A stretch of 64,000 nucleotides of DNA. Origin: Pannonibacter phragmitetus DSM 14782 (lineage in GTDB: Bacteria > Pseudomonadota > Alphaproteobacteria > Rhizobiales > Stappiaceae). Location: contig NZ_KB908220.1 in NCBI RefSeq assembly GCF_000382365.1, positions 62,001-126,000 on the forward strand, read 5' to 3'. The notes beneath the pieces were generated by a model. That model made no database searches. It saw only the letters and a list, made by a program, of their open reading frames with translations, and was not told the DNA's origin. The position numbers and the translations under genes are program-made. Shown here one piece after another: positions 32,129-52,390 of the stretch; position 1 is the stretch's first letter; each line of letters starts with the position of its first letter.

Positions 32129-32150
32129 GTCAGTCTCCGTGGGTATGAAA

Positions 32151-34277: not shown

Positions 34278-35794
34278 GCGGGTTCCTCCTGACGCGTGGC
34301 TTGCCGGGCAGTGGCAAGATGCATGATGTCTTCCTGGGTGGTGCCTGCCCCGCCGGGCAGCGTGCCGGTCAGCCGGCCTTCGCACATGACGGCGATGCGG
34401 TGCGACACACGCAGGATTTCCGGCAGTTCCGAACTGATGACGATGATGGCCTTGCCCTCCGCAGCAAGGTCCGCCAGCAGTTTGTAGATTTCAGACTTGG
34501 CGCCAATGTCGATGCCGCGCGTCGGCTCATCGAAGATGAGGATATCGCAATTGCGCAGCAGCCATTTGGCAATGACGACCTTCTGCTGGTTGCCACCGGA
34601 CAGAAGCCGCACTTCCTGCCGCTCGGACGGGGTGCGGATGCCAAGGCTCTTGATGAAATCCCGCGCTGTCTTGCGCATGGCTTCATCGTTCAGTTGTCCC
34701 GCACCGCCGGTGAAGCGGTGCATGCTGGCCAGCGCCACGTTGTCGGCAACGTCCATGCCAAGGGCGAGGCCGAAGTGCTTGCGGTCCTCCGACAGATAGC
34801 CGATCCCGGCCCGCACAGCGTCCACCGGGGAGCGGATCTCGACCTTGCGGCCATGCACGGTGATTTCGCCGCTGTCCCGCGGATCGGCACCGAAGATGGC
34901 GCGGGCGACTTCCGTGCGCCCGGCCCCCATGAGACCGGCAAAGCCAAGCACTTCGCCCTTCTTCAGCGAGAAACTGACATCGCGGATTTCACGCCCCCGG
35001 TTCAGGCCCTTCACTTCGAGAGCCACTTCTGAGCCGGTCAGATCGGGGATCGAGACCACCTCATCCGTCAGCGTGCGCCCGACCATCATGGAGATGATCT
35101 GCGAGATCGGCGTTTCCTTCGCGCCCACCGTGCCGACATATTCGCCGTCACGCATCACGGTCACCCGGTCGGAAATACGGCGGATCTCGTCCATCTTGTG
35201 GCTGATGTAGACGATGCCCACGCCATCGGCCTTCAGCCGGGCGATCATGGCAAAAAGCTCGTTGATCTCGCTCTCGGTGAGCGCCGCCGTCGGCTCGTCC
35301 ATGATCAGCACGCGCGAGCGCGCCGACAGGGCCTTGGCGATTTCCACCATCTGCTGGCGGGCGATGGACAGGCCATCCACCTTGCGGCGCGGATCGATGT
35401 TGATGTTGAGGACACGGAACAGTGCCTCGGCATCGCGGATCATCTTTGCATCATCGACCCGGCCGAAGGACAGGCGCGGCTCGCGGCCGATGAAGATGTT
35501 CTGCGCGACCGTCAGATCCTTCATCAGGGCGAGTTCCTGATGGATGATGCCGATGCCCTGATCCTGTGCGGCGCGCGGGCTGGGCAAGGTCACTTCCCGG
35601 CCCTCCACCAGAATACGGCCCGAGTCCGGCTGATAGACGCCGGAGAGGATCTTCATGAGGGTGGATTTGCCTGCGCCATTTTCCCCCATCAGCGCATGAA
35701 CCTCGCCCTCCTGAAGGTCGAAGCTCACGCCCTTCAGGGCATGGACGCCGGGAAAGCGCTTGTCGATGCGGTGCATTTCCACGAGGATCTTCAT
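34274..35794 (-). CDS. Sugar ABC transporter ATPase with two nucleotide-binding domains (RbsA type)
   Basis: Predicted 506-residue tandem ATPase that powers the importer. The first domain has Walker [10 protein letters not shown] (about 38-46), signature [15 protein letters not shown] and Walker [12 protein letters not shown]. The second domain has the degenerate Walker [10 protein letters not shown], signature [16 protein letters not shown] and Walker [13 protein letters not shown]. This asymmetry is normal for RbsA/MglA/XylG proteins. Overlaps of four bases at both ends with the permease gene and with the lactonase gene place it in the middle of the operon. Confidence 0.95.
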
Positions 35795-36651
35795 GCGCGC
35801 CCCTCCCCGAGCCCGTAGAAACGGATGGCAGTGCCGCCAAGCAAGGCAGCGCGCTCATCAGAGGACAGACCACCGGTCAGCCGTTCCGTCACCTCTTCCC
35901 AGAAGCCGTGCGTGCCGGCCAGCGTCAGCACCGGCCAGTCCGATCCCCACATCAGCCGCTGCGGGCCGAACCAGTGCAGCAGATGATCCATCACCGGCTG
36001 CAACAGGGCCACCGCAGCTTCCACATCCTGCGGGCAGGACGGGCTGATTTCGGTGAGAAGGCCGGACAGCTTGCAGACGATGCGCGTGTCCGCCGCCAGC
36101 GCCTTCATGTGGTGCTTCCAGTGGGCGCTCAGGCCTTCCGCCACCGTAGGCTTGGCAGCGTGATCAATGACCAGCGGAAGATCAGGATGAGCAGCCGCGA
36201 AACGGGTGATGGCGGCAAGCTGAGGTTCCTTCACCAGTGCATCGAAGCGCAGGCCAAGGCGCACCATGGCTGCAATCACGCAATCCTCGGGAGCTGTAAG
36301 GATCCAGTCCGGATCGGCAATGTCCTGCAGCATCGGGCGGATGCCCTTGAGGCGCTTGTCCGCCGCCATGTGCTCCAGCCGGACTTCCGCCAGCGGATCG
36401 GTCAGATCAACCCAGCCGACCACACCGGCAATCTGCGGCGCAGCCTTGGCAAGCTCCAGCAGAAACAGGGTTTCCGCCTCGGACGGGGCAGCCTGCACCA
36501 CGACAACGCGGCGGTTGCCGTTGAGGCTGGCGAGATCGGCAGGCAGGAAGTCACGGCGCAGCGGATCAAGAGCGGGACCGCCCTCCTCCAGCCAGCCATA
36601 ATCTCCGCGCGCCGGGCGCCAGAAATGGCAATGAGCATCAATTCGTTCCAT
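35791..36651 (-). CDS. Amidohydrolase-2 family, probable L-fuconolactonase
   Basis: Predicted 286-residue TIM-barrel amidohydrolase. The N-terminus [20 protein letters not shown] contains the HxH metal motif (His7, His9) with the phrase DAHCHFW typical of the fucono-/rhamnono-lactonase subgroup. His in VIDHAAKP (about 163) and Asp in MWGSDWPV (about 250) complete the site. It should open L-fuconolactone, the second step of the pathway. The gene overlaps the ABC ATPase gene by four bases and is 55 bases after the SDR gene, a gap that holds a hairpin. Confidence 0.88.
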
Positions 36652-36680
36652 CCGGCGGCCTCCCGTCCGCGTGTGATGGC

Positions 36681-36702
36681 TGCGGGCCTCGACCGGCCCG
36701 CA
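36681..36702 (-). other. Hairpin between lactonase and SDR genes
   Basis: Perfect eight-base-pair stem TGCGGGCC / GGCCCGCA with loop TCGACC, just after the stop of the first gene of the operon. No T run follows. It may act as an mRNA stabiliser or a weak terminator. Confidence 0.45.
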
Positions 36703-36706
36703 AGGC

Positions 36707-37444
36707 TCAGATCGTGACGCCGCCGTCCACCAGAACGGCCTGACCGGTCATGAAGCGGCTTTCGTCGCTCAGAAGATAGAGCACCAGCGGCGTGATATCG
36801 TCCACCGTTGCCAGACGGCCCATGGGCTGGCGGGCGATGAAGTCCTTCTCCGCCTGCACCGGGTCGGCAGCAGAGGCGATGCGGCCGCGCAGCGAGGGCG
36901 TGTCCACCGTGCCGGGGCACAGGGCGTTGCAGCGGATGCCCTGCTTCACATAATCGGCCGCAACGGCCTTGGTCAGGCCGATCACCGCCGCCTTGGTGGT
37001 GCCATAGGCGGTGCGGTTGACAAATCCCTTGATGGAAGAGGCCATCGAGGCCATGTTGAGAATGGATGCAGAGCCGGTCTTGCCGGCCCGTTCCAGCATC
37101 CCCGGCAGGAAAGCCCGGATCATGCGCATCATGGAGGTTACATTGACCGCCAGTGCCTGTTCCCAGTCCTCGTCAGTGATGTCGAGCACCGCACCGTTGT
37201 GCACCATGCCCGCGCAGTTGAAGAGCCCGTCCAGCGGGCCAACGTCCCGCGCCAGCGCATCGATGGCAGCCCGGTCCGTCACATCCAGCTTCAGCGTTTC
37301 AAGGCCAGTGAGCCCGGCCAGCAGAGTGGCATCCCGGTCCGTGGCAATCACCCGTGCGCCTTCTGCCGCCAATGCCAGAGCCGAAGCGCGGCCCATGCCC
37401 TGACCGGCTGCCGTCACGAGAATAGTCTTGCCTGCAAGGCGCAT
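36707..37444 (-). CDS. SDR oxidoreductase, probable 2-keto-3-deoxy-L-fuconate dehydrogenase
   Basis: Predicted 245-residue short-chain dehydrogenase. The cofactor loop is TAAGQGMG (11-18), and Asp36 after the second strand (IATDRD) indicates NAD. Catalytic Tyr147 and Lys151 lie in TAYGTTK. The phrases NMASMASSIKG and NALCPGTVDTPSL are typical of the DHRS6/BDH2-like group, to which bacterial 3-deoxy-fuconate dehydrogenases belong. The ATG follows GGGAGGA; an upstream in-frame start would run into the operator region and is rejected. As the first gene after the operators it leads the leftward operon. Confidence 0.87.
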   Translation of the reverse strand: MRLAGKTILVTAAGQGMGRASALALAAEGARVIATDRDATLLAGLTGLETLKLDVTDRAAIDALARDVGPLDGLFNCAGMVHNGAVLDITDEDWEQALAVNVTSMMRMIRAFLPGMLERAGKTGSASILNMASMASSIKGFVNRTAYGTTKAAVIGLTKAVAADYVKQGIRCNALCPGTVDTPSLRGRIASAADPVQAEKDFIARQPMGRLATVDDITPLVLYLLSDESRFMTGQAVLVDGGVTI

Positions 37445-37517
37445 CGCAGTCCTCCCGGATACCGGCTCCACCTCAGGGCCACCGGCCTTTCCTCCACCAG
37501 CCGCTCTTGATGACAGC

Positions 37518-37550
37518 TGTTCATATACGAACACCCTATTCACAAATGAA
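37518..37550. promoter_or_regulatory. Paired palindromic operators between the fucose operon and its IclR gene
   Basis: Two related palindromes lie in the 183-base divergent gap. The first, TGTTCATATACGAACA, has arms TGTTC and GAACA. The second, TTCACAAATGAA, has arms TTCA and TGAA and on the other strand reads GTTCATTTGTGAAT. Their centres are 19 bases apart, about two helical turns. IclR-family dimers bind such sites, so they are the probable targets of the adjacent regulator. Confidence 0.7.
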
Positions 37551-37627
37551 CTGATATGCAACACTGCAGATCAAGAGAACAAAACACCCCCGCGTGAAAT
37601 TTGCGAGGGGACCGGGAGGAATGAACC

Positions 37628-38392
37628 ATGAGTGATGCAGAGAGCGGGTCAGAGCGCTACCGCGCCCCTGCGCTGGACAAGGGGCTCGATATTCTCGAAT
37701 TGCTGTCGGAACAGTCTGCCGGCATGACGCGTGCGGAAATCGTCAAGGCCATGGGCCGCAGCCCCTCGGAAATCTACCGCATGCTGGAGCGGCTGGTGGC
37801 GCGCGACTATGTGGTGCGCTCCTTTGGCGGCGACCGCTACGCCCTGTCGATGAAGCTGTTCGTGCTGGCCAACCGGCACCCGCCGGTGCGCCGCCTTGTG
37901 GCGCAGGCAACGCCGAAGCTGGATCTGTTCGCCCGTGACAGCCGCCAGTCGTGCCATCTCGCCGTGCCTGAGCGCGCTGCCGCCGTTGTCGTGGCGCAGG
38001 CAAGCCCGATGGACAGTTGGGAATTCCGCGTGCGCGTCGGCGCAAGACTGGACCTGCTGGACACCGGCTCAGGCATTGCGCTGCTGGCCTTCCAGAACCC
38101 GGAACGCCGCGCCGAAACCCTGGCCACCTGGGGCAGCAGCGCCCAGACCGCGCGCCTGCATGAGGTGGAAGAAGAGCTCGAACGGGTGCGGGCGGCCGGT
38201 TACCGCATTGCCGAAAGCGGCCAGCTTCTCGGCGTGCAGGATATTTCCGTGCCCGTGCTGGCCCCGGACGGCGACGCCATCGCCGTCCTCACCTGCCCCT
38301 ACCTCGGCCGCCCCGCCAGCGCCCCTTGCGCCAGCATCAGCGAGGTTCTGGACCGGTTGAAGGGTCTGGCGGGGGAACTCTCCCTCGCCTGA
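37628..38392 (+). CDS. IclR-family transcriptional regulator (probable fucose regulator)
   Basis: Predicted 254-residue regulator. The N-terminal winged helix-turn-helix (about 12-75) contains ALDKGLDILELLSEQSAGMTRAEIV in pieces and the recognition helix region GRSPSEIYRMLERLVARDYV. The effector domain (about 85-250) is the usual IclR GAF-like part. The ATG follows GGGAGGA. It diverges from the eight-gene fucose operon across the paired palindromes and converges tail-to-tail with fucU, 13 bases away. An intermediate of fucose breakdown is the likely effector; this is inferred. Confidence 0.9.
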   Translation: MSDAESGSERYRAPALDKGLDILELLSEQSAGMTRAEIVKAMGRSPSEIYRMLERLVARDYVVRSFGGDRYALSMKLFVLANRHPPVRRLVAQATPKLDLFARDSRQSCHLAVPERAAAVVVAQASPMDSWEFRVRVGARLDLLDTGSGIALLAFQNPERRAETLATWGSSAQTARLHEVEEELERVRAAGYRIAESGQLLGVQDISVPVLAPDGDAIAVLTCPYLGRPASAPCASISEVLDRLKGLAGELSLA

Positions 38393-38405
38393 TCCTCACT
38401 TCACA

Positions 38406-38840
38406 TCACCCGAAGATCACGCCCTTGCGGATGATGAAATTGCCATAGGCGCGCAGTTCGGTGGTCAGGACCACAGCATAGCACTCCTTGGCACGGGCGT
38501 AGAAATCATAGCGCTCCAGCGAGGCCATGGACGCTTTTTCCGCGTCGAACAGGGGCTTGGCCTCGGCCACCACCGGCGGAATGGCCGCAGCATCGCCCAC
38601 CACCTGCATGGTGAAAACCGGATCGCCATCGAAGGTGTCCACCGGCAGCAGAGTGAGAATGGCCTCCACCGCTTTCACTGCCGGGCAATCCATGCGCAGC
38701 GGCACCCCATGCACCGTGTGGCGAGCGGTCGATTCGGCCGGAAAATTGGCATCGACGATGGCAATCTCGTCCCCATGCCCCATGGCGGCCAGAACCATCA
38801 GCAGTTCCGGGCTGATGAGCGGATGAATCCCCTTGAGCAT
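38406..38840 (-). CDS. fucU: L-fucose mutarotase (RbsD/FucU family)
   Basis: Predicted 144-residue RbsD/FucU-fold protein that speeds the exchange of alpha- and beta-fucopyranose. The start MLKGIHPLISPELL is very close to the enterobacterial protein. The active-site residues known from FucU, His22 and Asp30, are present in GHGDEIAIVDANFP, and the C-terminal YxxF-like part reads RAYGNFIIRKGV. It supports L-fucose rather than L-rhamnose as substrate of the neighbouring pathway. The gene is read leftwards, converging with the IclR gene, and therefore has its own promoter. Confidence 0.94.
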   Translation of the reverse strand: MLKGIHPLISPELLMVLAAMGHGDEIAIVDANFPAESTARHTVHGVPLRMDCPAVKAVEAILTLLPVDTFDGDPVFTMQVVGDAAAIPPVVAEAKPLFDAEKASMASLERYDFYARAKECYAVVLTTELRAYGNFIIRKGVIFG

Positions 38841-39204: not shown

Positions 39205-40314
39205 TCACCCCGGCGTGTAGGCCAGGCTTGCAATGTCCACGGCCTTGCCGGTCATGGCGGATTGCTGGGCGGCGAGGCCCATGGCGACGGCCCACCAGCC
39301 GTCATTCAGAGCCACTTCCACCGGCGCACCGGCGGTGACGGCTTTCTGGAAGCGCTGGTGCTGATAGAAGGTGGAGCCATTGTGGTCGCCGGCATCCAGC
39401 AGCTGCGGATCGACCGGCACTTCCAGCACCACGGGCCCCTGCGGCTGGCGCGGCGAGACGATGACCTGCGGCACCGGCGGCTCACCCAGATGCTCCGGCC
39501 AGAAACGGCCCGGTCCCGGAACGAGGCATTCGATCTTGCCCTTTGGCCCGACAGCGGAAATCTCCTCCTGATAGCGCGAGCCTTCCGCGAACATGCAGAG
39601 CTCCAGCATGGCGCGGGCGCCGGAGGCGAAATCGACGATCACATAGGCATGGTCCCAGATATCGGAGCGCTCGCCTGCGTAAACCTCGTCCAGATGGTTC
39701 ACCGCCTGCCCGCCGGACGCCATAACCCGCACCGGATCGGACTTGAGGATGTGGCGCATGAGGTCGAAAAAATGGCAGCATTTTTCCACCAGTGTGCCGC
39801 CGGTGTTGCGGTTGAAGCGGTTCCAGTCGCCGACCTTCTCGAGAAACGGAAAGCGGTGCTCGCGGATAGTCAGCATGCGGATGCCGCCGGTCACGTTGTC
39901 CGCTTCCTCGATCATCTTTGCGACCGGGGGCATGTAGCGGTATTCCATCGCCACCCAGATGGGCGCAGGATAGGCAGCGCGCAGGGCGGCAAGGCGCGGG
40001 GCATCTTCGGGCGCTGTGAACAGCGGCTTTTCCACGATCACCGGCAGTGGCCGGACGGAGGCAATTTCCTCGAGCTGGCTGAGATGCAGGAAATTGGGGC
40101 TGGCGATCAGCAGACAGTTGATCTGGGCCACCTCCAGAAGATCGGCGACCGAGTCCACCATCCGGGCGCCGGGCACGGCTGCGGCGGCACGGGCGCGCAT
40201 GTCTGCATCGGGCTCGTAGATTGCTGCAACAGACGCCCCCTCCAGCAGGGCAATGTTGCGCAGATGCTCCTGCCCCATCATGCCGCAGCCGATGATTCCA
40301 TACGTCAGGCTCAA
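39205..40314 (-). CDS. Gfo/Idh/MocA oxidoreductase, candidate NAD-dependent sulfoquinovosidase (GH188-like)
   Basis: Predicted 369-residue Gfo/Idh/MocA protein. The N-terminal Rossmann fold has GIIGCGMMG (6-14) and the family motif EKP at 95-97. The second domain holds GGTLVEKCCHFFDL, with the His and Asp typical of the catalytic helix. Most relatives are sugar dehydrogenases. However, family GH188 contains Gfo/Idh/MocA-fold, NAD-dependent sulfoquinovosidases found beside sulfoquinovose monooxygenase genes, which is exactly the neighbourhood here. I therefore propose this role as an inference; a dehydrogenase of another sugar is the main alternative. It follows the GntR gene after 11 bases, so both share a leftward transcript. 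Confidence 0.6.
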   Translation of the reverse strand: MSLTYGIIGCGMMGQEHLRNIALLEGASVAAIYEPDADMRARAAAAVPGARMVDSVADLLEVAQINCLLIASPNFLHLSQLEEIASVRPLPVIVEKPLFTAPEDAPRLAALRAAYPAPIWVAMEYRYMPPVAKMIEEADNVTGGIRMLTIREHRFPFLEKVGDWNRFNRNTGGTLVEKCCHFFDLMRHILKSDPVRVMASGGQAVNHLDEVYAGERSDIWDHAYVIVDFASGARAMLELCMFAEGSRYQEEISAVGPKGKIECLVPGPGRFWPEHLGEPPVPQVIVSPRQPQGPVVLEVPVDPQLLDAGDHNGSTFYQHQRFQKAVTAGAPVEVALNDGWWAVAMGLAAQQSAMTGKAVDIASLAYTPG

Positions 40315-40325
40315 GGTATTTCCCC

Positions 40326-41030
40326 CTATTTCAGACGCGCCACGTAGCGCGCCACGTTATGATCGAACCAGGTGCGGGAAACCTCCGCCCGCTGCCCGTC
40401 CTGTCCATGACTGATGCGAAGGATGTGCGGCACCGGCGCACCCGGCGCGTGGCAGAAATTGGCAGGCGCCCAGTCCGGCACATGATCCAGCCCCACCTGA
40501 TCCTCGGCCTTGACGATCCACAGGCCGAGCCGGGTGCGGTAGAAGAGATAGAGCGACTCTGACAGCTCTTCTGCCGTCACATGCTGCACATAGGAGCCGT
40601 CGAGCCAGATCTCCTCGACAGCTGCAATCTGCCCCGAAAGACGGCGCAGGCGGCGGATGCGGTGGCCTTCGCTGCCATGCCCGAAAGGCGGCAGGTAATC
40701 CGGCTTGGCCAGCCGGGTGACGGACAGAACCTCCGCTGTTGGCAGGCCGCCGCCCTTGATCAGCTCCAGCCGGAACATGGCGTAGAGGCTCTTCGGGTCA
40801 CTCATCGCCCGGATGTAGTTCCCCGAGCCCTGAACACGCTCCAGCAGCCCGCGATTCTGCAACTCTGCCAAGGCCTTGCGCAGGGTTCCGACAGCAATGC
40901 CCATCTCCGCTGCCATGTCCCGTTCCGGCGGCAGGCGCATGCCGTCGATCAGCCGTCCAGCAGCAATATCGCGCACCAGCAATTCGGCGATCTGCATGTA
41001 GATCGGCAGGCTGCCCTTGCTCTGTGTCAT
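40326..41030 (-). CDS. GntR/HutC-family regulator with UTRA domain
   Basis: Predicted 234-residue regulator. The N-terminal GntR helix-turn-helix (about 5-72) contains LPIYMQIAELLVRDIAAG, RLPPERDMAAEMGIAVGTLRKAL in pieces, and the wing RVQGSGNYI. The C-terminal UTRA ligand-binding domain (about 90-230) is of the HutC type that often binds sugars or sugar phosphates. The ATG chosen follows CGGAG; a GTG 14 codons upstream has no ribosome site. It diverges from the monooxygenase operon and leads the transcript with the Gfo/Idh/MocA gene, so it is the expected local regulator of both. Confidence 0.88.
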   Translation of the reverse strand: MTQSKGSLPIYMQIAELLVRDIAAGRLIDGMRLPPERDMAAEMGIAVGTLRKALAELQNRGLLERVQGSGNYIRAMSDPKSLYAMFRLELIKGGGLPTAEVLSVTRLAKPDYLPPFGHGSEGHRIRRLRRLSGQIAAVEEIWLDGSYVQHVTAEELSESLYLFYRTRLGLWIVKAEDQVGLDHVPDWAPANFCHAPGAPVPHILRISHGQDGQRAEVSRTWFDHNVARYVARLK

Positions 41031-41089
41031 CACGCTCCGGCCGTGGAATGAGGTGTTCGAGGAGTGGGTCACAAGAAAATTGATACACT

Positions 41090-41105
41090 ATTGATTTACA
41101 TCAAT
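41090..41105. promoter_or_regulatory. Palindromic operator candidate between the GntR gene and the monooxygenase operon
   Basis: ATTGATTTACATCAAT is a perfect inverted repeat of ATTGAT with a four-base centre, and another TTGAT half-site occurs at 41080-41084. It lies in the 120-base AT-rich divergent gap, where it could control both directions. Binding by the adjacent GntR-type protein is inferred from position. Confidence 0.6.
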
Positions 41106-41150
41106 GCAGGTGTTACGCAAGTGGAAACTGCGGCTCAAAAGGGGAGTATG

Positions 41151-42308
41151 ATGACCGTTGTTCCCGTGACCTCCGCCGATCTCGACGCATCCGAAGTGTC
41201 CTGGTTTGCGGCTCTGTGCTCCGACGACTACGCCTATCTCGGCGTGCCGGACGGCAGCCTGCGCTCCAGCTGGGAGCACTGCTCCTCGATCGTGCAGAAG
41301 GCGGAAAGCCTTGGCTTCCGCAACATCCTGTGCCCCTCGTCCTATCAGGTGGGGCAGGACACGCTGAGCTTCGTGGCCGGCTGCGCGCCCATCACGGAGC
41401 ACATCAACATGCTGGCGGCCATCCGCTGCGGCGAGATGCAGCCGATCATGCTGGCCCGCACGGTGGCAACGCTCGATCACATGCTGAAGGGCCGCCTGAC
41501 GCTCAACGTCATCAGCTCCGACTTCCCCGGTGAAGTTGCTGACAGCACCTACCGCTACAAGCGCAGCCACGAGGTCGTTCAGATCCTGCGGCAGGCCTGG
41601 ACGCGCGAGACCATCGATCATGAGGGCGAGGTCTATCAGTTCAAGGGCGTTTCGACAGAACCGGCGCGTCCCTATCAGCAGAACGGCGGCCCCCTGCTCT
41701 ATTTCGGCGGATACTCGCCGGATGCGCTGGAACTGTGCGGCGCCCAGTGCGACGTCTATCTGATGTGGCCCGAGACAAAAGACCAGTTGGCAGAGCGGAT
41801 GAAGGCCGTGCATGAACGCGCCGCCGCCCATGGCCGCACCCTCGACTATGGCCTGCGCGTCCACATGATCGTCCGCGACACGGAAGCCGAAGCGCGCGAA
41901 TATGCCGAGCATCTCGTCTCGAAGCTCGATGACGAATACGGCAAGCTGATCCGCGACCGCGCCCACGACTCCATCTCGCTGGGCGTTGCCCATCAGGCCC
42001 GCGCCCGCGAACTGGCGGACAAGTTCGGTTATATCGAGCCGCATCTGTGGACCGGCATTGGCCGGGCGCGCTCAGGCTGCGGGGCGGCGCTCGTCGGCTC
42101 CACCGATCAGGTGCTGTCGGAAATCGAATCCTACCGGAAGATGGGCATCCGCGCCTTCATCTTCTCCGGCTATCCGCATCTGGAGGAAGCCGGTCACTTC
42201 GGAACCAAGGTCCTGCCGCAGCTCAAGACCTGTTCCCTGCCCCATGAATATGGCCGTGTGCCAAGCGAAACGCCAGCCACTCCGCTGGGCGTGGGAGAAC
42301 GCCGCTGA
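41151..42308 (+). CDS. SsuD-like FMNH2-dependent monooxygenase, candidate sulfoquinovose monooxygenase
   Basis: Predicted 385-residue luciferase-like monooxygenase of the alkanesulfonate monooxygenase type. It uses reduced flavin and oxygen to split C-S bonds, releasing sulfite. Residues equivalent to the SsuD active site are all visible: Arg236 and His238 in GLRVHMIV, Arg307 in GIGRARSG, Tyr341 and His343 in SGYPHLEEA; Trp206 lies in YLMWPETK. With the next two genes (aldo/keto reductase, flavin reductase) it reproduces the sulfo-SMO set, where SmoC desulfonates sulfoquinovose to 6-oxo-glucose. Use of another sulfonate cannot be excluded. The second of two adjacent ATG codons is chosen because GGGGAG is better spaced. 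It overlaps the next gene by one base. Confidence 0.8.
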   Translation: MTVVPVTSADLDASEVSWFAALCSDDYAYLGVPDGSLRSSWEHCSSIVQKAESLGFRNILCPSSYQVGQDTLSFVAGCAPITEHINMLAAIRCGEMQPIMLARTVATLDHMLKGRLTLNVISSDFPGEVADSTYRYKRSHEVVQILRQAWTRETIDHEGEVYQFKGVSTEPARPYQQNGGPLLYFGGYSPDALELCGAQCDVYLMWPETKDQLAERMKAVHERAAAHGRTLDYGLRVHMIVRDTEAEAREYAEHLVSKLDDEYGKLIRDRAHDSISLGVAHQARARELADKFGYIEPHLWTGIGRARSGCGAALVGSTDQVLSEIESYRKMGIRAFIFSGYPHLEEAGHFGTKVLPQLKTCSLPHEYGRVPSETPATPLGVGERR

Positions 42309-43201
42309 TGAACCGCATTGATCTCACCAAAGACCTGAGCCTCAGCCGCATCGTCTATGGCATGTGGCGCATCGGTGATGACAGCAACACCAGCCCGGCG
42401 CATGTTCAGGCCAAGATCGAAAGCTGTCTGGCGCAGGGCATCACCACGCTGGATCAAGCCGACATTTACGGCGGCTACACCGCCGAGGCGATCCTGGGCG
42501 GTGCGCTGAAGGCATCGCCGCAGCTGCGCGACAAGGTGGAACTCGTCACCAAGTGCGGCATCGTCGCCCCGGCCGGCCGCTATGCGGACCGGCGCGTGAA
42601 GTACTACGACACCACCGAAGGACACATCACGGCCTCGGTCGAAGCCTCCTTGCGCGACATGGGCACGGACCGGATCGACCTGCTGCTGATCCACCGCCCC
42701 GATCCGCTGATCGACCACGAGGAAACCGGCAAGGCGCTGGATGGCCTCGTCGCGTCGGGCAAAGTGCGCAGCGTCGGCGTCTCCAACTTCCGCCCCTGGG
42801 ATTTCTCGCTGCTGCAGTCGGCGATGAGCGGCAAGCTCGTCACCAACCAGATCGAGATCAGCCTTGTGGCAACCGAATGCTTCGTCAACGGCGATCTGGC
42901 CTATCTGCAGGAAAGGGCGATTGCGCCGATGGCCTGGTCGCCGCTGGGCGGCGGCTCGCTCTTCGGCGAGGACAACCGCCAGCTTCTGGCCGCACTGGAG
43001 CGGACCGGCGCGGCGCAGGGCGTTGATGCAACTGCAGTCGCAGTCGCCTGGCTGCTGCGCCATCCGGGGCGGATCATCCCGGTGATGGGCACCAACAACA
43101 TCGAGCGGATCGGCAAGATCGGCGAGGCAGCCAAGGTGGAGATGGACCGGCAGACCTGGTTCGAGCTTTATACTCTGGCCATTGGCAAGGACGTGCCGTG
43201 A
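42308..43201 (+). CDS. Aldo/keto reductase, candidate 6-oxo-glucose reductase (SmoB-like)
   Basis: Predicted 297-residue aldo/keto reductase, a TIM barrel using NADPH. The catalytic tetrad is Asp49, Tyr54 (DQADIYGGY), Lys82 (LVTKCG) and His129 (LLIHRPDP). The C-terminal cofactor segment reads PGRIIPVMGTNNIERI. Its start overlaps the stop of the monooxygenase gene by one base, so translation is coupled. In the sulfo-SMO pathway an enzyme of this superfamily reduces the aldehyde product to glucose, which would feed central metabolism; that function is inferred from context. Confidence 0.78.
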   Translation: MNRIDLTKDLSLSRIVYGMWRIGDDSNTSPAHVQAKIESCLAQGITTLDQADIYGGYTAEAILGGALKASPQLRDKVELVTKCGIVAPAGRYADRRVKYYDTTEGHITASVEASLRDMGTDRIDLLLIHRPDPLIDHEETGKALDGLVASGKVRSVGVSNFRPWDFSLLQSAMSGKLVTNQIEISLVATECFVNGDLAYLQERAIAPMAWSPLGGGSLFGEDNRQLLAALERTGAAQGVDATAVAVAWLLRHPGRIIPVMGTNNIERIGKIGEAAKVEMDRQTWFELYTLAIGKDVP

Positions 43202-43731
43202 TGATGGCAGCGAACGAACACCTCTCCGGACGGGATGAGCGGCTGTTCGTGCCGGGCACGGAAACATCGCGCGAGTTCCGCACTGCGCTGGGCACCTTTG
43301 CCACGGGCGTAACTGTGGTGACGGCCATGGGCGATCAGGGCCCCATGGGCATGACGGCCAACAGCTTCACCTCGCTGTCGCTGGATCCGCCACTGGTGCT
43401 CTGGTCGCCGGCAAAGAACTCATCCAAGCATGGCGGCTTCACCACCGCCACGCATTTCGCCATCCATGTGCTGGGCGAGGAGCAGGACGGGCTCAGCGCC
43501 AGCTTCACCCGGGGCGGCACCGCCTTTGACGGGCTGGCGTGGGAGATCAATGCGGAAGGCGCGCCGGTCATCCCTGGCACGCTCGCCCGCTTCGAGTGTG
43601 CCCTGCATGCCGTGCACGACGGCGGGGACCATTCCATTGTCATCGGACGGGTGCTACGCGTAGCACAGCGCGATGGCGCACCGCTTTGCTTCTCGCAGGG
43701 CGCTTTCGGACGGTTTGCCAGAATGACCTGA
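43201..43731 (+). CDS. FMN reductase, partner of the monooxygenase (SmoA-like)
   Basis: Predicted 176-residue flavin reductase of the FlaRed/HpaC type, which supplies reduced FMN to the two-component monooxygenase. Family sequence is clear: FRTALGTFATGVTVVTA, GMTANSFTSLSLDPPLVLWS in pieces, HFAIHVLGEEQ and the late DHSIVIGRVLRV. The start overlaps the preceding stop (TGATG); a GTG one codon earlier is an alternative. The tight packing of monooxygenase, aldo/keto reductase and flavin reductase shows that they act together. A hairpin (stem CAGCCGCG/CGCGGCTG at 43755-43779) separates it from the transporter genes. Confidence 0.88.
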   Translation: MMAANEHLSGRDERLFVPGTETSREFRTALGTFATGVTVVTAMGDQGPMGMTANSFTSLSLDPPLVLWSPAKNSSKHGGFTTATHFAIHVLGEEQDGLSASFTRGGTAFDGLAWEINAEGAPVIPGTLARFECALHAVHDGGDHSIVIGRVLRVAQRDGAPLCFSQGAFGRFARMT

Positions 43732-43793
43732 GATACCGGGCCATTCGGGTTTGGCAGCCGCGCCGGGAGACCGCGGCTGGTGGGAGGAAAATG

Positions 43794-44384
43794 ATGGGTT
43801 TCATTCTGGCAACCGCCAGATATCTGGGCCTTGTCAACGGCGCGGCGCTGGCCGCCGGCCGCTGGATCGGGGCAGGCTGCGTCGGGCTGATGGTCATCAT
43901 CATCCTGATCCAGGTGTTTTTCCGCTACGTGCTCAACGACGCTCCGGCCTGGACGGAGGAAGCCGCCCGCTTTCTCATGCTCTGGATGACCGGCCTGATG
44001 GTGCCCACGGCCTTCCGCCGGGGCGGCTTTGTCGGCATCGACATGCTGGTGATCCTGCTGCCGCGCCTTGTGGCCGGAGTGCTCAATCTCGTTCTGCTCA
44101 TCCTGATTGCCGGCCTCCTGTTCTACGCCACACGGCTGGGCTGGAAGGAAGTCACCGGCATTGGCGGCCGTTTTGCGATGGCCGCGATTTCCGTGCCCGT
44201 GTCGCTGGACTTCTCCGCCTGGATGAAGGTCCCCCGCGCCTGGATGATGGCCTCGCTCGCGGTTGGCTGTACGGCGATGCTCGCCGTCTGCATCGAACTG
44301 ATCCTGCGCAGCCTCATCACGCTCATGGGCGGTGAGCGCCAGCTTGCACCGGTTACCGAAACTCAGTCTCTGGGAGCGGAGTGA
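43794..44384 (+). CDS. TRAP transporter small permease (DctQ)
   Basis: Predicted 196-residue membrane protein with four hydrophobic segments, the DctQ subunit of a TRAP uptake system. Typical sequence includes VFFRYVLNDAPAWTEEAARFLMLW in pieces, near the first to second helix, and RGGFVGIDML. The second of two tandem ATG codons is favoured by spacing from GGGAGG. It overlaps the large permease gene by one base, as usual for TRAP genes. Being co-transcribed with the desulfonation enzymes, it probably serves import of their substrate. Confidence 0.9.
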   Translation: MGFILATARYLGLVNGAALAAGRWIGAGCVGLMVIIILIQVFFRYVLNDAPAWTEEAARFLMLWMTGLMVPTAFRRGGFVGIDMLVILLPRLVAGVLNLVLLILIAGLLFYATRLGWKEVTGIGGRFAMAAISVPVSLDFSAWMKVPRAWMMASLAVGCTAMLAVCIELILRSLITLMGGERQLAPVTETQSLGAE

Positions 44385-45673
44385 TGCTCAGTCTTTTCCT
44401 GCCGCTCTTCCTCCTGCTGCTGTTCCTCGGCCTGCCCGTGGTCTTCGGCCTCATCATGGCCCCAGCCGCCCTGCTCTGGGCCAATGGCCAGGAGCGTGAG
44501 ATCGCCCTGCTCTACCGCAATGTCTACAACGGCATGGACAGCTTCCCGCTGATGGCGATTCCTTTCTTCATGCTCGCGGGCGAACTGATGAACCGGGCCG
44601 GCATCACCATGCGCCTCGTCGAATTTGCACAGGCCATGATCGGCCATCTGCGCGGTGGTCTGGCGCACGTGAACATCATGTCCTCCATGCTCTTTGCCGG
44701 ATTGTCCGGCTCGGCGGTGGCGGATGTGTCGGCGCTGGGCTCCATGCTGATCCCGGCCATGGAGAAGCAGGGGTACACCCGCCGTTTTGCCGCCGCCGTG
44801 ACCGCCGCCTCCTCCATCATCGGCCCGATCATCCCGCCCTCCGGCATCATGATCATCTATGCCTATGTGATGAACCAGAGTGTTGCCGCCCTGTTCCTTG
44901 CGGGCATCGTGCCGGGCATTCTCATTGGCCTCAGTCTGATGGTCATCGTCTGGCTGCAGGCGGACCGGGAAAACCTGCCCGCCGCTACCGCCCGCGCCTC
45001 GTGGGGAGACAGAGGCAAGGCCAGCCTCTCGGCCTTCTGGCCACTGCTGACGCCGGCGATCATCCTCGGCGGCATTCTTGGCGGTGTCTTCACCCCGACG
45101 GAAGCTTCCGCCATCGCCGTGGGCTACTCGTTCTTCATCGGCCTCTTTGTCATGCGCACCCTCAAGGTGCGCGAGATCCCGGACGTGCTGACCCGCGCCG
45201 GCATGACCTCCGCCGTGGTGCTGCTGCTGGTGGGTGCTGCCATGGCCTTCAAGACGGTGGCCAGCCTTGCCCACACGCCGGAACTGCTGGCCGATATCAT
45301 CCTCGGCCTCAGCAACAATCCGCTGGTGCTGCTGTTCCTGATCAACATCCTGCTGTTCATCGTCGGCATGTTCCTCGATGCAGGGCCCGCCATCATCATC
45401 CTGGGGCCGATCCTCGGACCGATCTTCACCTCCATGGGCGTGGATCCGATCCATTTTGCCATCATCATGGCGGTGAACCTGACCGTTGGCCTGCTCACCC
45501 CGCCCATGGGCCTCGTGCTGTTCGTCACCTCGTCCGTCTCGGGCCTGAGGGTGGAGACCATTGCCCGGGCAACGCTGCCGTTCCTGGCGGCGGAAGTGGC
45601 CGTGATCTTCCTGATCACCTACTTCCCCGCCATCTGCCTCACCGTCCCCCGCCTTCTGGGGTTCGTGAACTGA
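44384..45673 (+). CDS. TRAP transporter large permease (DctM)
   Basis: Predicted 429-residue membrane protein with about twelve helices, the sodium-coupled DctM subunit. Family signatures include MAIPFFMLAGELMNRAGI, the SxSG-type loop LFAGLSGSAVADVSALG and the late NLTVGLLTPPMGLVLFV. Its ATG overlaps the DctQ stop. No break or truncation is seen. Together with DctQ and the DctP protein downstream it makes a complete high-affinity importer. Confidence 0.95.
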   Translation: MLSLFLPLFLLLLFLGLPVVFGLIMAPAALLWANGQEREIALLYRNVYNGMDSFPLMAIPFFMLAGELMNRAGITMRLVEFAQAMIGHLRGGLAHVNIMSSMLFAGLSGSAVADVSALGSMLIPAMEKQGYTRRFAAAVTAASSIIGPIIPPSGIMIIYAYVMNQSVAALFLAGIVPGILIGLSLMVIVWLQADRENLPAATARASWGDRGKASLSAFWPLLTPAIILGGILGGVFTPTEASAIAVGYSFFIGLFVMRTLKVREIPDVLTRAGMTSAVVLLLVGAAMAFKTVASLAHTPELLADIILGLSNNPLVLLFLINILLFIVGMFLDAGPAIIILGPILGPIFTSMGVDPIHFAIIMAVNLTVGLLTPPMGLVLFVTSSVSGLRVETIARATLPFLAAEVAVIFLITYFPAICLTVPRLLGFVN

Positions 45674-45697
45674 CTTGAGTGAAAGGGAGGAACTGGA

Positions 45698-46756
45698 ATG
45701 CTCAAGGCACTTCTGAAGACCGTGCTGCTGGCCAGCACGCTGTCCATGGCCACCATGGCGCAGGCGGCAGACATCACCCTGCGCGCCACCGCCAATTCCA
45801 ACGAGAATGACGAGGATTATGACGGCCTCGTCGTCTTCAAGAACTACGTGGAGAATGCCTCGAACGGCGCGATTGCCGTTGAGCTGTTCATCGGCACCCA
45901 GCTCTGCGCCACCGGCGAGGAATGCCTTCAGGGCGTCGCCGACGGCAACATCGATATCTACATCTCCACCTCCGGCGGTGCGGCGGGCCTCTTCCCCTAT
46001 ATCCAGGTGCTGGACCTGCCCTATCTGATGAGCGACGACCGGGTGGCCGAAGCCGTGCTGACCGGCCCCTTCACCCGCGAATTGCGCGCCAAGGCTCTGG
46101 CTGACAGCGGCAACGCCATCCGCCTGATGACCATCGGCAACACCGGCGGCTGGCGCAACTATGCCAACACCAAGGGCACGGTGAAGACCCCGGCAGACCT
46201 CAAGGGCCTGAAGATGCGCACCGTGCCGGCCGACCTGCCGCAGCAGGTGGCCACCGCCGTCGGCGCGTCGCCCACGCCCGTTCCGTGGCCGGAACTCTTC
46301 ACCGCCCTGCAGACCGGCGTTGTCGAAGGCACGGCCAACGGCATCACCGACATCATGAACATGAAGTTCACCGATGCAGGCGTGAAATACATCACTCTGG
46401 ATGGCCACTCCTACATGGGTGCCTTCTGGTGGATGTCGAACCAGCGCTTCCTGTCGCTGACGCCGGAACAGCGCAAGGTGGTGGCCGATGGCTTCGCCGC
46501 CCTGCAGCAGGCCACCTTCGCCAGCCCCAAGCGCAAGGAAATCGCCGCCTATCAGGACTTCCTGAAAGCCGGCGGCGAGATCTACGTGCCGACGGCTGAA
46601 GAAAAGGCAGCCTTCAAGGAGGCCGTCGCCCCGGTGTTCGACTGGTTCAAGACCAAGGTCACGGGTGGCGAGGAAGTCTTCGCCATGTTCACCACCGCCG
46701 TGGCTGAAGCCGAGGAAATCGTCAACGCCGAGCGCGCCGCCGAAACGGCCGACTGA
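45698..46756 (+). CDS. TRAP transporter substrate-binding protein (DctP)
   Basis: Predicted 352-residue periplasmic binding protein. A signal peptide ends at MAQA (about 23). The conserved arginine that pairs with the anionic group of TRAP ligands is Arg174 in LKGLKMRTVP. Two nearby cysteines, Cys70 and Cys76 in GTQLCATGEECLQG, could form a disulfide in the periplasm. The ligand is not known from sequence. Co-transcription with sulfonate-cleaving enzymes suggests sulfoquinovose, its glycerol glycoside or another anionic sugar. The gene follows GGGAGG and ends just before a strong terminator. Confidence 0.9.
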   Translation: MLKALLKTVLLASTLSMATMAQAADITLRATANSNENDEDYDGLVVFKNYVENASNGAIAVELFIGTQLCATGEECLQGVADGNIDIYISTSGGAAGLFPYIQVLDLPYLMSDDRVAEAVLTGPFTRELRAKALADSGNAIRLMTIGNTGGWRNYANTKGTVKTPADLKGLKMRTVPADLPQQVATAVGASPTPVPWPELFTALQTGVVEGTANGITDIMNMKFTDAGVKYITLDGHSYMGAFWWMSNQRFLSLTPEQRKVVADGFAALQQATFASPKRKEIAAYQDFLKAGGEIYVPTAEEKAAFKEAVAPVFDWFKTKVTGGEEVFAMFTTAVAEAEEIVNAERAAETAD

Positions 46757-47084: not shown

Positions 47085-47260
47085 GCCACAAGAGGAAGGG
47101 AGGCTGAAAAGCCTTGCCCCACAACCCCAAACAGGCCCAGACCTGATATCCTTTCATCTGCCCTGAAACAAAACTGCTTACCCGAAAAACAACGGCTCTC
47201 AAGACAGGCACCGGGGCATCCGGTGCGTCTCTTTTGCGCCCCATCCTGAAGGTTCACGCC

Positions 47261-48316
47261 ATGGCCACTCCAGATCAGGCCTTTCCAGCCGAAAAGGACG
47301 GAGAGACTTCGCTTGCCGCACGCATGCGCCTGCGTTTCCCCGGCCTTTCCATCGCCGTGCTGATCGCACTCGCCTCCGCCTTCCTTTCGGAGCATTACGG
47401 CGCGCCGGCCATGCTGCTGGCGATCCTGATCGGACTGGCGCTGCATTTCCTCTCAGATGATCCGCGCATGCTGCCGGGGCTGGAGTTTGCAGCGAAAAGC
47501 CTCCTGCGCGCCGGGATCACGCTACTCGGCCTCAGGATCAGCCTCGGCATGTTTGCCGATCTCGGGCTACCGATGCTTCTGGTGCTGGCAAGCGCCGTTG
47601 CCTTGACCATCGGCTTCGGTATGGCCGTCTCGCGCCTCTTCGGGCAGGAAAGCCGCTTCGGACTGCTCACGGGCGGCGCCGTCGCCATCTGCGGGGCGTC
47701 TGCCGCCATGGCCATCGCCGCCGTGCTGCCGCGCAAGTCTGCCCATGAGGCAGAGCGGGACATGGTGTTCGCCGTCTTTGGCGTCACCATGATGTCCACA
47801 CTCGCCATGATCGGCTACCCCATCCTCGCCTCTGCTCTGGGCATGAGCGATCAGGTCACCGGCGTCTTCCTCGGCGCAACGATCCATGACGTGGCGCAGG
47901 TGGTCGGCGCAGGTTTCTCCGTTTCCGAGACAACTGGCGACATGGCCGTGCTGGTGAAGCTGATCCGCGTCACCATGCTGGCCCCCGTGGTGCTGCTGAT
48001 CGCCCTCGCCTTCCGCCGCTCCGTGCCCTCCGATGCCAAGCGTCCGCCGCTGGTGCCGCTGTTCGTTCTTGGCTTTCTGGCGCTGGCCATCCTCAATTCC
48101 CTCATCGAAATCCCGGCATTCGTCGCAGAAGGCGCCAATGCAGCCTCCCGCTGGGCGCTGCTGGCAGCCATCGGCGCGGTCGGCGTCAAGACCTCCCTGC
48201 CCAACATCATGAGCGTCGGCCGCCGCGCCATTGCGCTGCTGGTTGCCGAAACCGTGTTCCTCGCAGGCTTCATCCTGATCTGCGTCGAGTTCCTGCCACT
48301 CGACCGGCTGCATTAA
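47261..48316 (+). CDS. YeiH/TauZ-family putative sulfate or sulfite exporter
   Basis: Predicted 351-residue membrane protein with about ten helices, of the COG2855 (YeiH, UPF0324) family. Typical sequence: LRAGITLLGLRISLG, LTGGAVAICGASAAMAIAAVLP in pieces, GATIHDVAQVVGAGFSVS, and the late AIGAVGVKTSLPNI. TauZ of taurine-degrading Paracoccus belongs to this family and is thought to export the inorganic sulfur released. Placed just after a desulfonation operon it is a plausible sulfite/sulfate exporter. A terminator and a repeat element lie between, so it is not in the same operon. The ATG follows AAGG; an upstream TTG is less likely. Confidence 0.85.
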   Translation: MATPDQAFPAEKDGETSLAARMRLRFPGLSIAVLIALASAFLSEHYGAPAMLLAILIGLALHFLSDDPRMLPGLEFAAKSLLRAGITLLGLRISLGMFADLGLPMLLVLASAVALTIGFGMAVSRLFGQESRFGLLTGGAVAICGASAAMAIAAVLPRKSAHEAERDMVFAVFGVTMMSTLAMIGYPILASALGMSDQVTGVFLGATIHDVAQVVGAGFSVSETTGDMAVLVKLIRVTMLAPVVLLIALAFRRSVPSDAKRPPLVPLFVLGFLALAILNSLIEIPAFVAEGANAASRWALLAAIGAVGVKTSLPNIMSVGRRAIALLVAETVFLAGFILICVEFLPLDRLH

Positions 48317-48420
48317 GGCTCTCCACACTTGCCCTTGCCTGCCAGTTTTGCGAGGGTCGGACACTGCTGCTTCATGGGGTGCGAACAAGACGCCGCAAGC
48401 AGGCAGCATGGGAGGGGAGA

Positions 48421-49828
48421 ATGAACACCAGCACGGCACTGGCCAGCGCTGCGCCGAAGACAGGCTTTGATGAGGCGCTGGGAGAGGCCTCGATCCTCGT
48501 CATCGATGACGAGCCGGGCATGCGCAACTTCCTTGACCGGACGCTGCGCCCGCGCTGCCGGCATCTGGATCTGGCCGCCAGCGTCGAAGAGGCCACTGGC
48601 CTGCTGGATGCAGCGCATTTCGATATCGTCATCCTCGACAATATCATGGGCGGCCAGCGCGGCGTCGACTGGCTGGCCGAACAGCGCGACACCGGCTTTC
48701 TGCCCGCCGCCATCCTGATCACCGCCTATGCCGACCTTGAGACGGCCATTCAGGCACTGCAGGCGGGTGCGGCGGATTTCGTGCTGAAGCCCTTCCGCTC
48801 CAACCAGATCCTCAATGCCGTGGCCCGCTGCCTCGACCGGATGCAGCTGCAGCGGGAGAACACGGTGCTGCGGCATGAGCTGAAGGCAAGCTCTGACCTT
48901 ATCCTCCTGCGCGACAAGCTGATCGGCGCCTCCCCCGCCATCGAGGACATCCGCGCCACCATCGCCCGCGTTGCCCCGCTCCCCTCCTCCGTGCTGCTGA
49001 CCGGCCAGTCCGGCACCGGCAAGGAGGTGGCAGCGCGCATGATCCATGAGCTGTCCGACCGGGCGGCCAAGCCCTTCGTGCCGGTCAACTGCGCCGCCAT
49101 GCCGTCCGACATGGTGGAGAGCGAGCTTTTCGGCCATGTGAAGGGCGCCTTCACCGGCGCGCAGAATGGGCGCGAGGGCCTGTTCCTGCATGCCCGCGGC
49201 GGCACGCTGTTTCTGGACGAGATTGGCGACCTGCCCCTTCAGACCCAGGGCAAGCTGCTGCGCGTGCTGGAAGACCGCAAGGTGCGCCCCGTCGGCGCCG
49301 AGCGCGAGCTGCCCGTCGATCTGCGCTTCGTCTTTGCCACCAATGTGGATCTGGAGAAAGCGGTGGCCGAGGGGCGCTTCCGGGCCGACCTCTTCTTCCG
49401 CATCAACATCGTCAGCCTGCACATGCCGCCGCTGAAGGAGCGCGGGCGCGATGCGCTCGATCTGGCGGACCTGTTCATGCAGAAGCTGTCGCTGCAGCTC
49501 GGCACCCCGCCGCTGCCGCTCACCGAAGAGGTGCGCCGGGCGATTGCCGCCTATGACTGGCCGGGCAATGTGCGCGAGCTGCGCAACTTCATCGAGCGCA
49601 GCCTGATCCTTGGCCGCTTTCCGCCGGATTTCCTGCGCACCGCGCAAACGCCCGGTACTGGCGGGCAAGCCAGCGCGGCACCGCAGGCCGATGGCACGCT
49701 GACGCTGGCCGATATGGAGCGCAACCATATTCTGGGCACGCTGGAGAGCTGCGGCGGCAACCGGGATGCGGCCGCAAACCTTCTCGGCATTTCCCGCAAG
49801 ACCATCGACCGGCGGCTCAGGGACTGGA

Positions 49829-49836
<8 letters not shown>
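48421..49836 (+). CDS. NtrC-family sigma-54-dependent response regulator
   Basis: Predicted 471-residue activator. The receiver domain (about 22-140) has VIDDEPGM and the phosphorylation site Asp73 in VILDNIMGG. The AAA+ domain (about 165-400) has Walker A GQSGTGKE, the sigma-54 contact loop GAFTGA (242-247) and Walker B GGTLFLDEIG. A C-terminal Fis-type helix-turn-helix reads NRDAAANLLGISRKTIDRRL. It is intact and should activate sigma-54 promoters after phosphorylation. It overlaps the histidine kinase gene by eight bases. A sigma-54 promoter lies upstream of the transporter gene that follows, its likely target. Confidence 0.95.
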
Positions 49837-51907
<2,071 letters not shown>

Positions 51908-51924
51908 GGGGGAAGGCAAAGGTA

Positions 51925-52140
51925 GGAATGCGCCCTCCTTTTGCCGCAGCATTCCTCTCCCCCCTTGAGGGGGAGATGTCTGCGCCAGCAGACAGAGGGG
52001 GGTTGCAGCGCCTCAGCACGGCAGGATCTCTCTCATAAACGGACAGTCCATTACCCCCTCTGCCCCCTGTCGGGGGCATCTCCCCCTCAAGGGGGGAGAG
52101 GAGTTGGCGCCTGCCTGACGGCCTGTTGTGAACACTGCTC
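51925..52140. repeat. Intergenic palindromic element, copy 2
   Basis: Second copy of the element at 46841-47084, with about 200 bases of high similarity in the same orientation, including the C-rich/G-rich inverted blocks and the small hairpins. Its right end GCCTGTTGTGAACACTGCTC is the complement-type match of copy 1's left end. The left terminal repeat is missing, where the kinase gene ends. The remaining 52141-52380 region shows only an inverted repeat CCGGACAA / TTGTCCGG (52223-52259) and no gene. Confidence 0.85.
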
Positions 52141-52390
52141 TAAAAAGCGAAAAAGGCACAAGGGTCAGCGGAAGAACCGTCCTGTTTTCTGTAAGCCCCC
52201 CAGCCCCCCAAAGACCCTCTGTCCGGACAAGCTGTCCCTGAGCCTCCCAAGTTGTCCGGCATGAAGGGCGAATGCTGCGGATGAAGAACCAGCGGGGGCT
52301 GGAGAGCAAGGTGCGCAGCCCTCGTGCCGGCACATTCTGACGGATCGCCCCACAGCATCACCCGAGTAAATTAGTCCTATTTTTCAAATT

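Follow-up and report, generated by a model that had tools for sequence, protein, structure and literature searches.

Sulfoquinovose (SQ) is the sulfolipid sugar of plants and algae. Its production is put at about 10 billion tons a year (PMC10755693), and it is often imported via ATP-binding cassette (ABC) transporters (PMC12133307). The closest described relatives of the system reported here are the sulfoquinovose monooxygenase pathway (sulfo-SMO, also written sulfo-ASMO) of Agrobacterium tumefaciens and the Roseobacter sulfo-SMO clusters, in which the sulfoquinovosidase SqgA is near-universal (PMC10755693). In a 64,000-nucleotide stretch of the approximately 4.78-Mb genome of Pannonibacter phragmitetus DSM 14782 (contig NZ_KB908220.1, positions 62,001 to 126,000; hereafter the window, in whose numbering its features are given), we find a sulfo-SMO gene set joined to genes for a tripartite ATP-independent periplasmic (TRAP) transporter, DctPQM. 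We propose that this transporter very probably imports both SQ and sulfoquinovosyl glycerol (SQ-glycerol), and that it belongs to an SQ importer family not tied to one pathway.

The cluster comprises two divergent units around a 117-base gap, gntR-sqgA reading leftward and smoC-smoB-smoA-dctQ-dctM-dctP rightward, with a gene for a YeiH-type exporter about 480 bases beyond dctP. smoC and smoB overlap by 1 base and smoB and smoA by 4 bases, and the same gene order recurs across several genera, that is, beyond chance. Families were assigned by Pfam, with TIGR/NCBIfam profiles scored against their own cut-offs, and we chose the start codons of gntR, smoC and dctQ ourselves, that of gntR by homology. 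All gene positions and families given in an initial annotation of the stretch agree with the open frames and Pfam, and its observation of an SQ-degradation gene set with TRAP genes is confirmed.

The product of smoC (about 41148..42308, + strand), a luciferase-like protein by Pfam and the putative reduced flavin mononucleotide (FMNH2)-dependent sulfoquinovose monooxygenase, is identical to structure 7olf at 345 of 384 residues (90%, 810 bits) and scores 793 bits against 7oh2 versus only about 209 bits against SsuD (1nqk). We take 7olf and 7oh2 to be SmoC; their PDB titles read methanesulfonate sulfonatase and alkanesulfonate monooxygenase. Synteny backs the identity of SmoC independently of that assumption, since Agrobacterium loci carry GH31, ABC importer, GntR, SmoC, SmoB and SmoA genes in order, with SmoC identities of 87–91%. 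The placement of the monooxygenase nearer SmoC than the alkanesulfonate enzymes in the initial annotation is thus borne out, and alkanesulfonate scavenging of the SsuD type is rejected as the function. The same annotation had credited the protein with all SsuD active-site equivalents; by eye, the Arg/His, Tyr/His and Arg motifs of SsuD do align, but its cysteine, which we take to be Cys54, does not. A second SmoC-like match in the genome is only 35% identical, and among the best 80 of 581 SmoC loci the nearest named relative, Pannonibacter indicus, has a 99% identical SmoC. The smoB product (42308..43201, + strand), predicted to be the 6-dehydroglucose reductase, is an aldo/keto reductase matching 7bby/7bc0, best with 7bby (517 bits; PDB title aryl-alcohol dehydrogenase, presumably SmoB), and so is of the SmoB type as first suggested. 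smoA (43198..43731, + strand; Pfam Flavin_Reduct) encodes the putative flavin reductase for SmoC, mostly 59–69% identical to the third smo-operon gene of Agrobacterium/Rhizobium loci where this is present. The gene content of the Agrobacterium loci agrees with that of the A. tumefaciens pathway (PMC9594981), and sequence comparison confirms the window's genes as a sulfo-SMO gene set, predicted to cleave the C–S bond oxidatively.

The leftward unit makes the link to SQ much firmer, because its second gene, sqgA (39205..40314, − strand), encodes an SqgA with all SQ-contacting residues. The protein scores 382 and 381 bits against 8qc3 and 8qc2 and 532 bits against 8zn9, and K107, Y136, R166, L170, K172, E189, H193 and H321, the eight residues listed around SQ in SqgA (PMC10755693), are all identical to those of 8qc2 (8/8, by eye, numbering offset 13). 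The initial annotation named the fold family correctly (Gfo/Idh/MocA, Pfam) and overlooked that this is a GH188 sulfoquinovosidase; the structure matches and contact residues rule out a generic Gfo/Idh/MocA oxidoreductase. SqgA requires nicotinamide adenine dinucleotide (NAD+; PMC10755693), and the N-terminus of the window's protein starts straight at the Rossmann motif, with no signal peptide by eye. The enzyme is therefore predicted to be cytosolic, and its glycoside substrate would have to be imported.

The sole importer candidate within the cluster is encoded by dctQ (about 43836..44384; Pfam DctQ, small membrane subunit), dctM (44381..45673; Pfam DctM, TIGR00786 over its cut-off, large membrane subunit) and dctP (45698..46756; Pfam DctP, substrate-binding protein with a signal-peptide-like start, for which SQ and SQ-glycerol are the proposed ligands), all on the + strand. 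The three proteins together, with a conserved arginine and a binding-protein fold, make up a DctP-type TRAP transporter, and in the window's genome the best match to SmoF, the binding protein of the ABC importer, is only a distant one (26% identity, E 4e-12). The AlphaFold model of DctP (predicted local distance difference test score, pLDDT, 93.7) is nearest to 4p47, isethionate-binding 8t9t and sugar-acid-binding 7bbr, at 24–28% identity. The transporter might import free SQ only, with SQ-glycerol entering otherwise or being cut outside; small acids are the usual ligands of TRAP proteins, and the 50 best fold matches to the DctP model are all at 29% identity or less, so no structure of the DctP clade informs ligand size. 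We consider this restriction unlikely, given a cytosolic, NAD+-dependent SqgA and a cluster with no other importer.

Under the preferred reading, in which both compounds are imported, DctP would capture SQ-glycerol and/or free SQ in the periplasm, with its conserved arginine holding the sulfonate in place of the carboxylate usual for TRAP proteins, and DctQM would carry the captured sulfosugar inward. Gene identities, conserved residues, linkage, the duplication and the conserved operator are read from the sequences themselves; we infer the ligand, the direction of transport and its energy source, the regulation and the part played by the exporter. Cytosolic SqgA would then use NAD+ to split the glycoside into SQ and glycerol, SmoC would convert SQ, with O2 and FMNH2 supplied by SmoA, to sulfite and 6-dehydroglucose, and SmoB would reduce the latter to glucose. 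The YeiH-type protein would export sulfite or sulfate, the GntR protein bound at a conserved divergent operator would control both arms, and the dctPQM family would be combined with several SQ pathways.

Conserved linkage ties the transporter to these enzymes. A survey of 87 genomes of the window's family (Stappiaceae) found a close SmoC in 45 and a DctP match in 49; 40 of the 50 family DctP matches are on the strand of SmoC and no more than 7 kb from it (median gap 3.4 kb), and dctP adjoins SmoC in 40 of the 45 SmoC genomes. We analysed the best 80 of 581 SmoC loci for importer type, regulator and operator: 20 carry a TRAP importer (DctP at least 60% identical), 23 a SmoF-type ABC importer and 37 another importer or none recognised within the stretch covered. 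The TRAP genes pair with SqgA in 19 of the 20 loci, the twentieth (L068) being a contig cut at that point, and the SmoF-type ABC genes pair with GH31 in 22 of 23. We then took DctP itself as the starting point and scored 63 stretches for SQ markers (all non-family matches but G1153, the family matches away from SmoC, and G053 and G030, which lie beside SmoC). Where DctP was at least 60% identical, 26 of 32 stretches carried a marker, or 20 of 32 using independent markers from the window and Agrobacterium. The six without one (L116, L117, L134 on a 3.2-kb contig, L140, L178 and L179) come from genomes that all have SqgA and/or SmoC elsewhere (6/6). The window genome's 29 other TRAP binding proteins served as a control: they lie in 27 stretches, and none of these (0/27) holds an SQ marker.

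Relatives of the transporter also stand beside gene sets for other SQ pathways. Locus L149 holds a TauD-family dioxygenase, SqgA, a GntR-like gene, SmoB and dctQMP, with no SmoC in the stretch. The dioxygenase of the sulfoquinovose dioxygenase pathway (sulfo-SDO) is iron/2-oxoglutarate dependent (PMC12890257), and the L149 gene set appears to be as expected for sulfo-SDO. Isomerase-kinase-aldolase sets with SqgA, of the sulfo-Embden-Meyerhof-Parnas (sulfo-EMP) kind, lie beside DctP relatives in L113, L119, L132, L136 and L139. In L113, dctQMP is surrounded by SqgA, a SftI-like SQ isomerase (best NCBIfam match 256 bits, cut-off 700), a LacD-type aldolase, a ribokinase-family kinase, an aldose-epimerase-like protein, a succinate-semialdehyde-type dehydrogenase, a SuyB-like gene, an Ldh2-family dehydrogenase and a YeiH relative; on paper, this set would take SQ-glycerol as far as sulfolactate, which might then be broken down to pyruvate and sulfite. 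The SuyB label in L113 and L120 was given by eye, and for the L113 gene NCBIfam offers no more than a weak match to galactarate dehydratase. A further set in L151 combines YihS (703 bits to the sulfoquinovose isomerase 7ag4), a sulfolactaldehyde reductase over its cut-off, a class II aldolase, a ribokinase-family kinase, TauE and dctPQM, and the same set, again with the reductase over cut-off, occurs in L210 of Photobacterium sp. DA100.

One genome, G053, joins both kinds of cluster. L121, a sulfo-SMO cluster, and L120, an isomerase-aldolase (sulfo-EMP-like) cluster with a SuyB-like gene, share a 2,938-bp segment at 99.97% identity. The segment takes in almost the whole of dctQ and runs through to the end of dctP, and the DctPs of the two clusters do not differ at any of 352 residues. 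The compound common to these pathways is SQ or its glycoside. Linkage, relatives beside other SQ pathways and this duplication together favour the earlier suggestion that a TRAP system feeds the SQ cluster.

The DctP sequences point the same way. In a quick maximum-likelihood tree of 91 DctPs (103 were extracted, 11 near-duplicates, one unrelated protein at 25% and one partial sequence were dropped, and the window's was added), one branch with a support of 100 splits 78 wider-clade DctPs from 13 of the window genome's 29 paralogues. The window's DctP falls in the SQ-linked clade, although long branches were flagged and fine placement in the tree is therefore unsure. Pathway labels require 12 changes over six labels, sulfo-SMO and sulfo-EMP rows are interleaved, and among the 78 wider-clade rows 15 are without an SQ label and 2 are labelled PhyH. 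Arg174, which aligns with the TRAP hallmark arginine (PMC4646407), is invariant in 61 of 61 SQ-linked DctPs and in 13 of 13 paralogues. Eighteen residues are invariant in the 61 and found in none of the 13 paralogues (0/13), among them C70, C76, T91, D114, R115, E118, R130, R142, N148, W152 and D218; L150, of doubtful label, is counted among the 61, and roles for these residues rest on conservation. We judge it likely that the DctPQM clade consists of general SQ/SQ-glycerol TRAP importers, a cassette exchanged among sulfo-SMO, sulfo-SDO and sulfo-EMP types, whether or not the last include a sulfolactate-lyase branch, in Alphaproteobacteria and at least some Gammaproteobacteria (Photobacterium).

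Several observations weigh against an SQ importer, in the window or across the clade. With only 20 of 80 SmoC loci carrying it, the TRAP transporter is not needed by the sulfo-SMO pathway, and five of the 45 family SmoC genomes lack an adjacent dctP: the G059 contig ends after dctQ, dctP lies about 65 kb off in G048, and three have no dctP in the stretch. The SQ link is looser below 60% DctP identity, and at 40–60% only 20 of 31 stretches carry a marker (18 by the first marker set and 17 by independent markers); of the misses, G248 and G825 lack both SqgA and SmoC at our cut-offs, and G110 has SqgA elsewhere in its genome. Marker cut-offs and pathway labels are our own, gene calls in fetched loci came from a simple script, and several markers were taken from the studied loci themselves, so that L113, L114 and L123, the source of the isomerase, aldolase, kinase and two GH31 markers, match by construction; it is for the count with independent markers that these were set aside. 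Compared with the first marker set, the final one dropped the PhyH markers and added the kinase marker, which adds L151 and L153. L150, first labelled as sulfo-Entner-Doudoroff (sulfo-ED), resembles a pentose pathway as much, having an L-arabinonate dehydratase over its cut-off, and the sulfo-ED label is doubtful. Seven loci of one genus (L163, L165, L167, L168, L170, L174 and L176, family f44) carry DctPs of 46–49% identity with no SQ marker near. Six of these seven genomes also have an SQ-linked DctP copy, and the marker-less proteins may be either orphan transporters or transporters with a changed ligand. In L116 (7890-8666) and L117 (13255-13977), a PhyH-family dioxygenase stands beside dctPQM with an adjoining regulator (AraC in L117). 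The DctPs there are 66–69% identical and the genomes have SqgA elsewhere and no close SmoC, and the dioxygenase is a candidate for another SQ oxygenase. Lastly, some TRAP clusters carry a sulfolactate-lyase-like gene.

These points bear on the alternative that the enzymes degrade SQ while the TRAP transporter, a mere neighbour, imports an organic or sugar acid, or else sulfolactate, 2,3-dihydroxypropane-1-sulfonate (DHPS) or isethionate. TRAP proteins are described as mainly carboxylate-specific (PMC4646407), the nearest solved folds to DctP include isethionate- and sugar-acid-binding proteins, some 40–60% identical DctPs have no SQ genes near, and Taurinivorans has a TRAP transporter next to suyAB that is putatively assigned to sulfolactate import (PMC10507020), with the SuyB-like genes of L113 and L120 as a possible parallel. 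Yet sulfolactate and DHPS are not sulfo-SMO intermediates, SQ or its glycoside is what C–S-cleaving and C–C-cleaving clusters share, and near-identical dctQMP copies stand in both kinds of cluster in G053. Together with the control stretches free of SQ markers, this renders a mere neighbour improbable, and import of SQ and SQ-glycerol remains our preferred reading.

Regulation appears to be conserved irrespective of the importer. gntR (about 40326..41030, − strand) encodes a protein with GntR helix-turn-helix and UTRA domains (Pfam), likely an SQ-responsive regulator, and relatives 56–97% identical occupy the same place in nearly all loci (family SmoC loci and the best 80 of 581). Between gntR and smoC lies a putative operator/promoter element, AAATTGATACACTATTGATTTA (41077..41098, no strand assigned), with the direct repeat ATTGAT-N5-ATTGAT, and all 18 aligned gntR-smoC gaps (18/18) share ATTGAT-N5-ATTGAT-YTA. 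The longer operator pattern has one match in the window versus 0 expected, and the core, allowing up to 2 mismatches, has one match in the whole genome. Among the best 80 of 581 SmoC loci the core is present in 77, of both TRAP and ABC types, and missing in L081, L104 and L106. One regulator-operator pair thus seems to be common to clusters of the TRAP and ABC types. Neither this operator nor the exporter described next was noted in the initial annotation.

Downstream of dctP, the gene at 47234..48316 (+ strand) encodes a putative sulfate exporter of the YeiH/PF03601 family, with a TIGR00698 match below cut-off (125.6 versus 232.6 bits). A YeiH relative of at least 45% identity follows dctP in 14 of the 20 TRAP-type loci (of the best 80 of 581) and in Rhizobium sp. 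SL42, and the protein likely serves disposal of the released sulfur. In L124 and L126 the exporter comes directly after smoA with no dctQMP between, which would fit either loss of the TRAP cassette or its never having been acquired.

An L-fucose oxidation cluster (29224-38840) lies directly beside the SQ cluster, with an L-fucose dehydrogenase over its cut-off, fuconolactonase-like, keto-deoxy-sugar hydrolase-like and FucU-like genes below theirs, and a sugar ABC transporter and IclR gene recognised by eye. Its IclR and FucU genes also stand beside the SMO genes in Pannonibacter loci L032–L034, which is what might suggest that the cluster acts on a related sulfosugar such as sulfofucose instead of SQ. 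The sulfofucose route in the literature relies on different enzymes and an ABC system (PMC12421959), the Rhizobium, Ruegeria and Paracoccus stretches shown are free of fucose genes, and SmoC, SmoB and SqgA are close to SQ enzymes, SqgA with every SQ contact kept. We rejected a sulfofucose cluster on these grounds, and regard a related sulfosugar as a highly improbable substrate in place of SQ. Past the exporter, positions 48379-61095 hold a sigma-54 response regulator with an apparent histidine kinase, a formate dehydrogenase set (alpha subunit over cut-off) and a lactate-type major facilitator superfamily (MFS) carrier just under its cut-off.

Other neighbourhoods add observations of their own. 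An MFS-carrier-like gene (by eye) lies near SqgA/SmoCBA clusters that have neither TRAP nor SmoF genes (L096:5698-6936 and L099:5663-6895), possibly a third kind of SQ importer. In L118 (4853-6702), two genes read by eye as split transketolase halves lie upstream of a 52% identical DctM/DctP set, in a genome without close SqgA or SmoC; split transketolase is the key enzyme of the sulfo-transketolase pathway (sulfo-TK; PMC12890257), so L118 may represent a related route. A MauG-type di-haem cytochrome c peroxidase adjoins an SQ-type dctP in three different clusters (L113:10493-12223, L209:11121-12350 and L211:10567-11850).

SQ induction of such a TRAP transporter may already have been measured in Vibrio mediterranei AbY-1905, where a ten-gene cluster (tags 00105 to 00150, SQ isomerase 00125) is up more than 20-fold on SQ (PMC13372026). 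The matching cluster of L151 and L210 has ten genes, with the isomerase fifth counted from dctP, so tags 00105–00115 would be the TRAP genes if tags rise by five, and the TRAP transporter of Vibrionaceae probably lies inside the ten-gene SQ-induced cluster. The word 'transporter' is absent from the main text of that paper, its figure lying outside this check. In the literature searched, the sole paper with both 'sulfoquinovose' and 'TRAP transporter' assigns the TRAP transporter to taurine and sulfolactate (PMC10507020), and the transporter passages of PMC10755693, PMC12890257, PMC9594981, PMC12421959, PMC13372026, PMC12133307, PMC11659671 and PMC13219744 give ABC, other or no transporters and no SQ TRAP. 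No SQ TRAP importer was thus found in the searched literature, from which figures, supplements and two central papers fall outside, and these genes may well have been drawn as TRAP before. Pathway and enzymes were already known; what appears new, on this limited view of the literature, is the transporter variant and its use across pathways. If the proposal is true, the TRAP family becomes a marker for SQ uptake independent of pathway, and the generic annotation 'DctP', found for example in the stretches from Rhizobium, Ruegeria and Paracoccus, could be made specific. Sulfosugars and their glycosides would join the ligands of TRAP transporters, otherwise regarded as mostly carboxylate-specific, and the transporter would rank among the main ways by which SQ enters many marine and root-associated bacteria. 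How bacteria with only GH188 import SQ-glycerol would become a directly testable question.

Among known systems, the isethionate-binding protein IseP (8t9t) shares with DctP its fold, the conserved arginine and, as proposed here, a sulfonate ligand, and differs in sequence (26% identity) and in the ligand itself, the C6 sulfosugar proposed for DctP being larger and of another kind. The ABC importer of SQ-glycerol, SmoEFGH, would do the same job and is of an unrelated transporter type, with no SmoF orthologue in the window's genome. The Roseobacter GH188 clusters likewise join SqgA to sulfo-SMO genes, and the main text of PMC10755693, figures and supplements lying outside the check, contains none of the terms TRAP, ABC, transporter or importer. 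The sulfo-SMO cluster of A. tumefaciens shares with the window the order of SmoC, SmoB and SmoA, the divergent GntR gene and the operator core; its GH31 sulfoquinovosidase and ABC importer are replaced in P. phragmitetus by GH188 SqgA and TRAP DctQMP, with the YeiH-type exporter behind.

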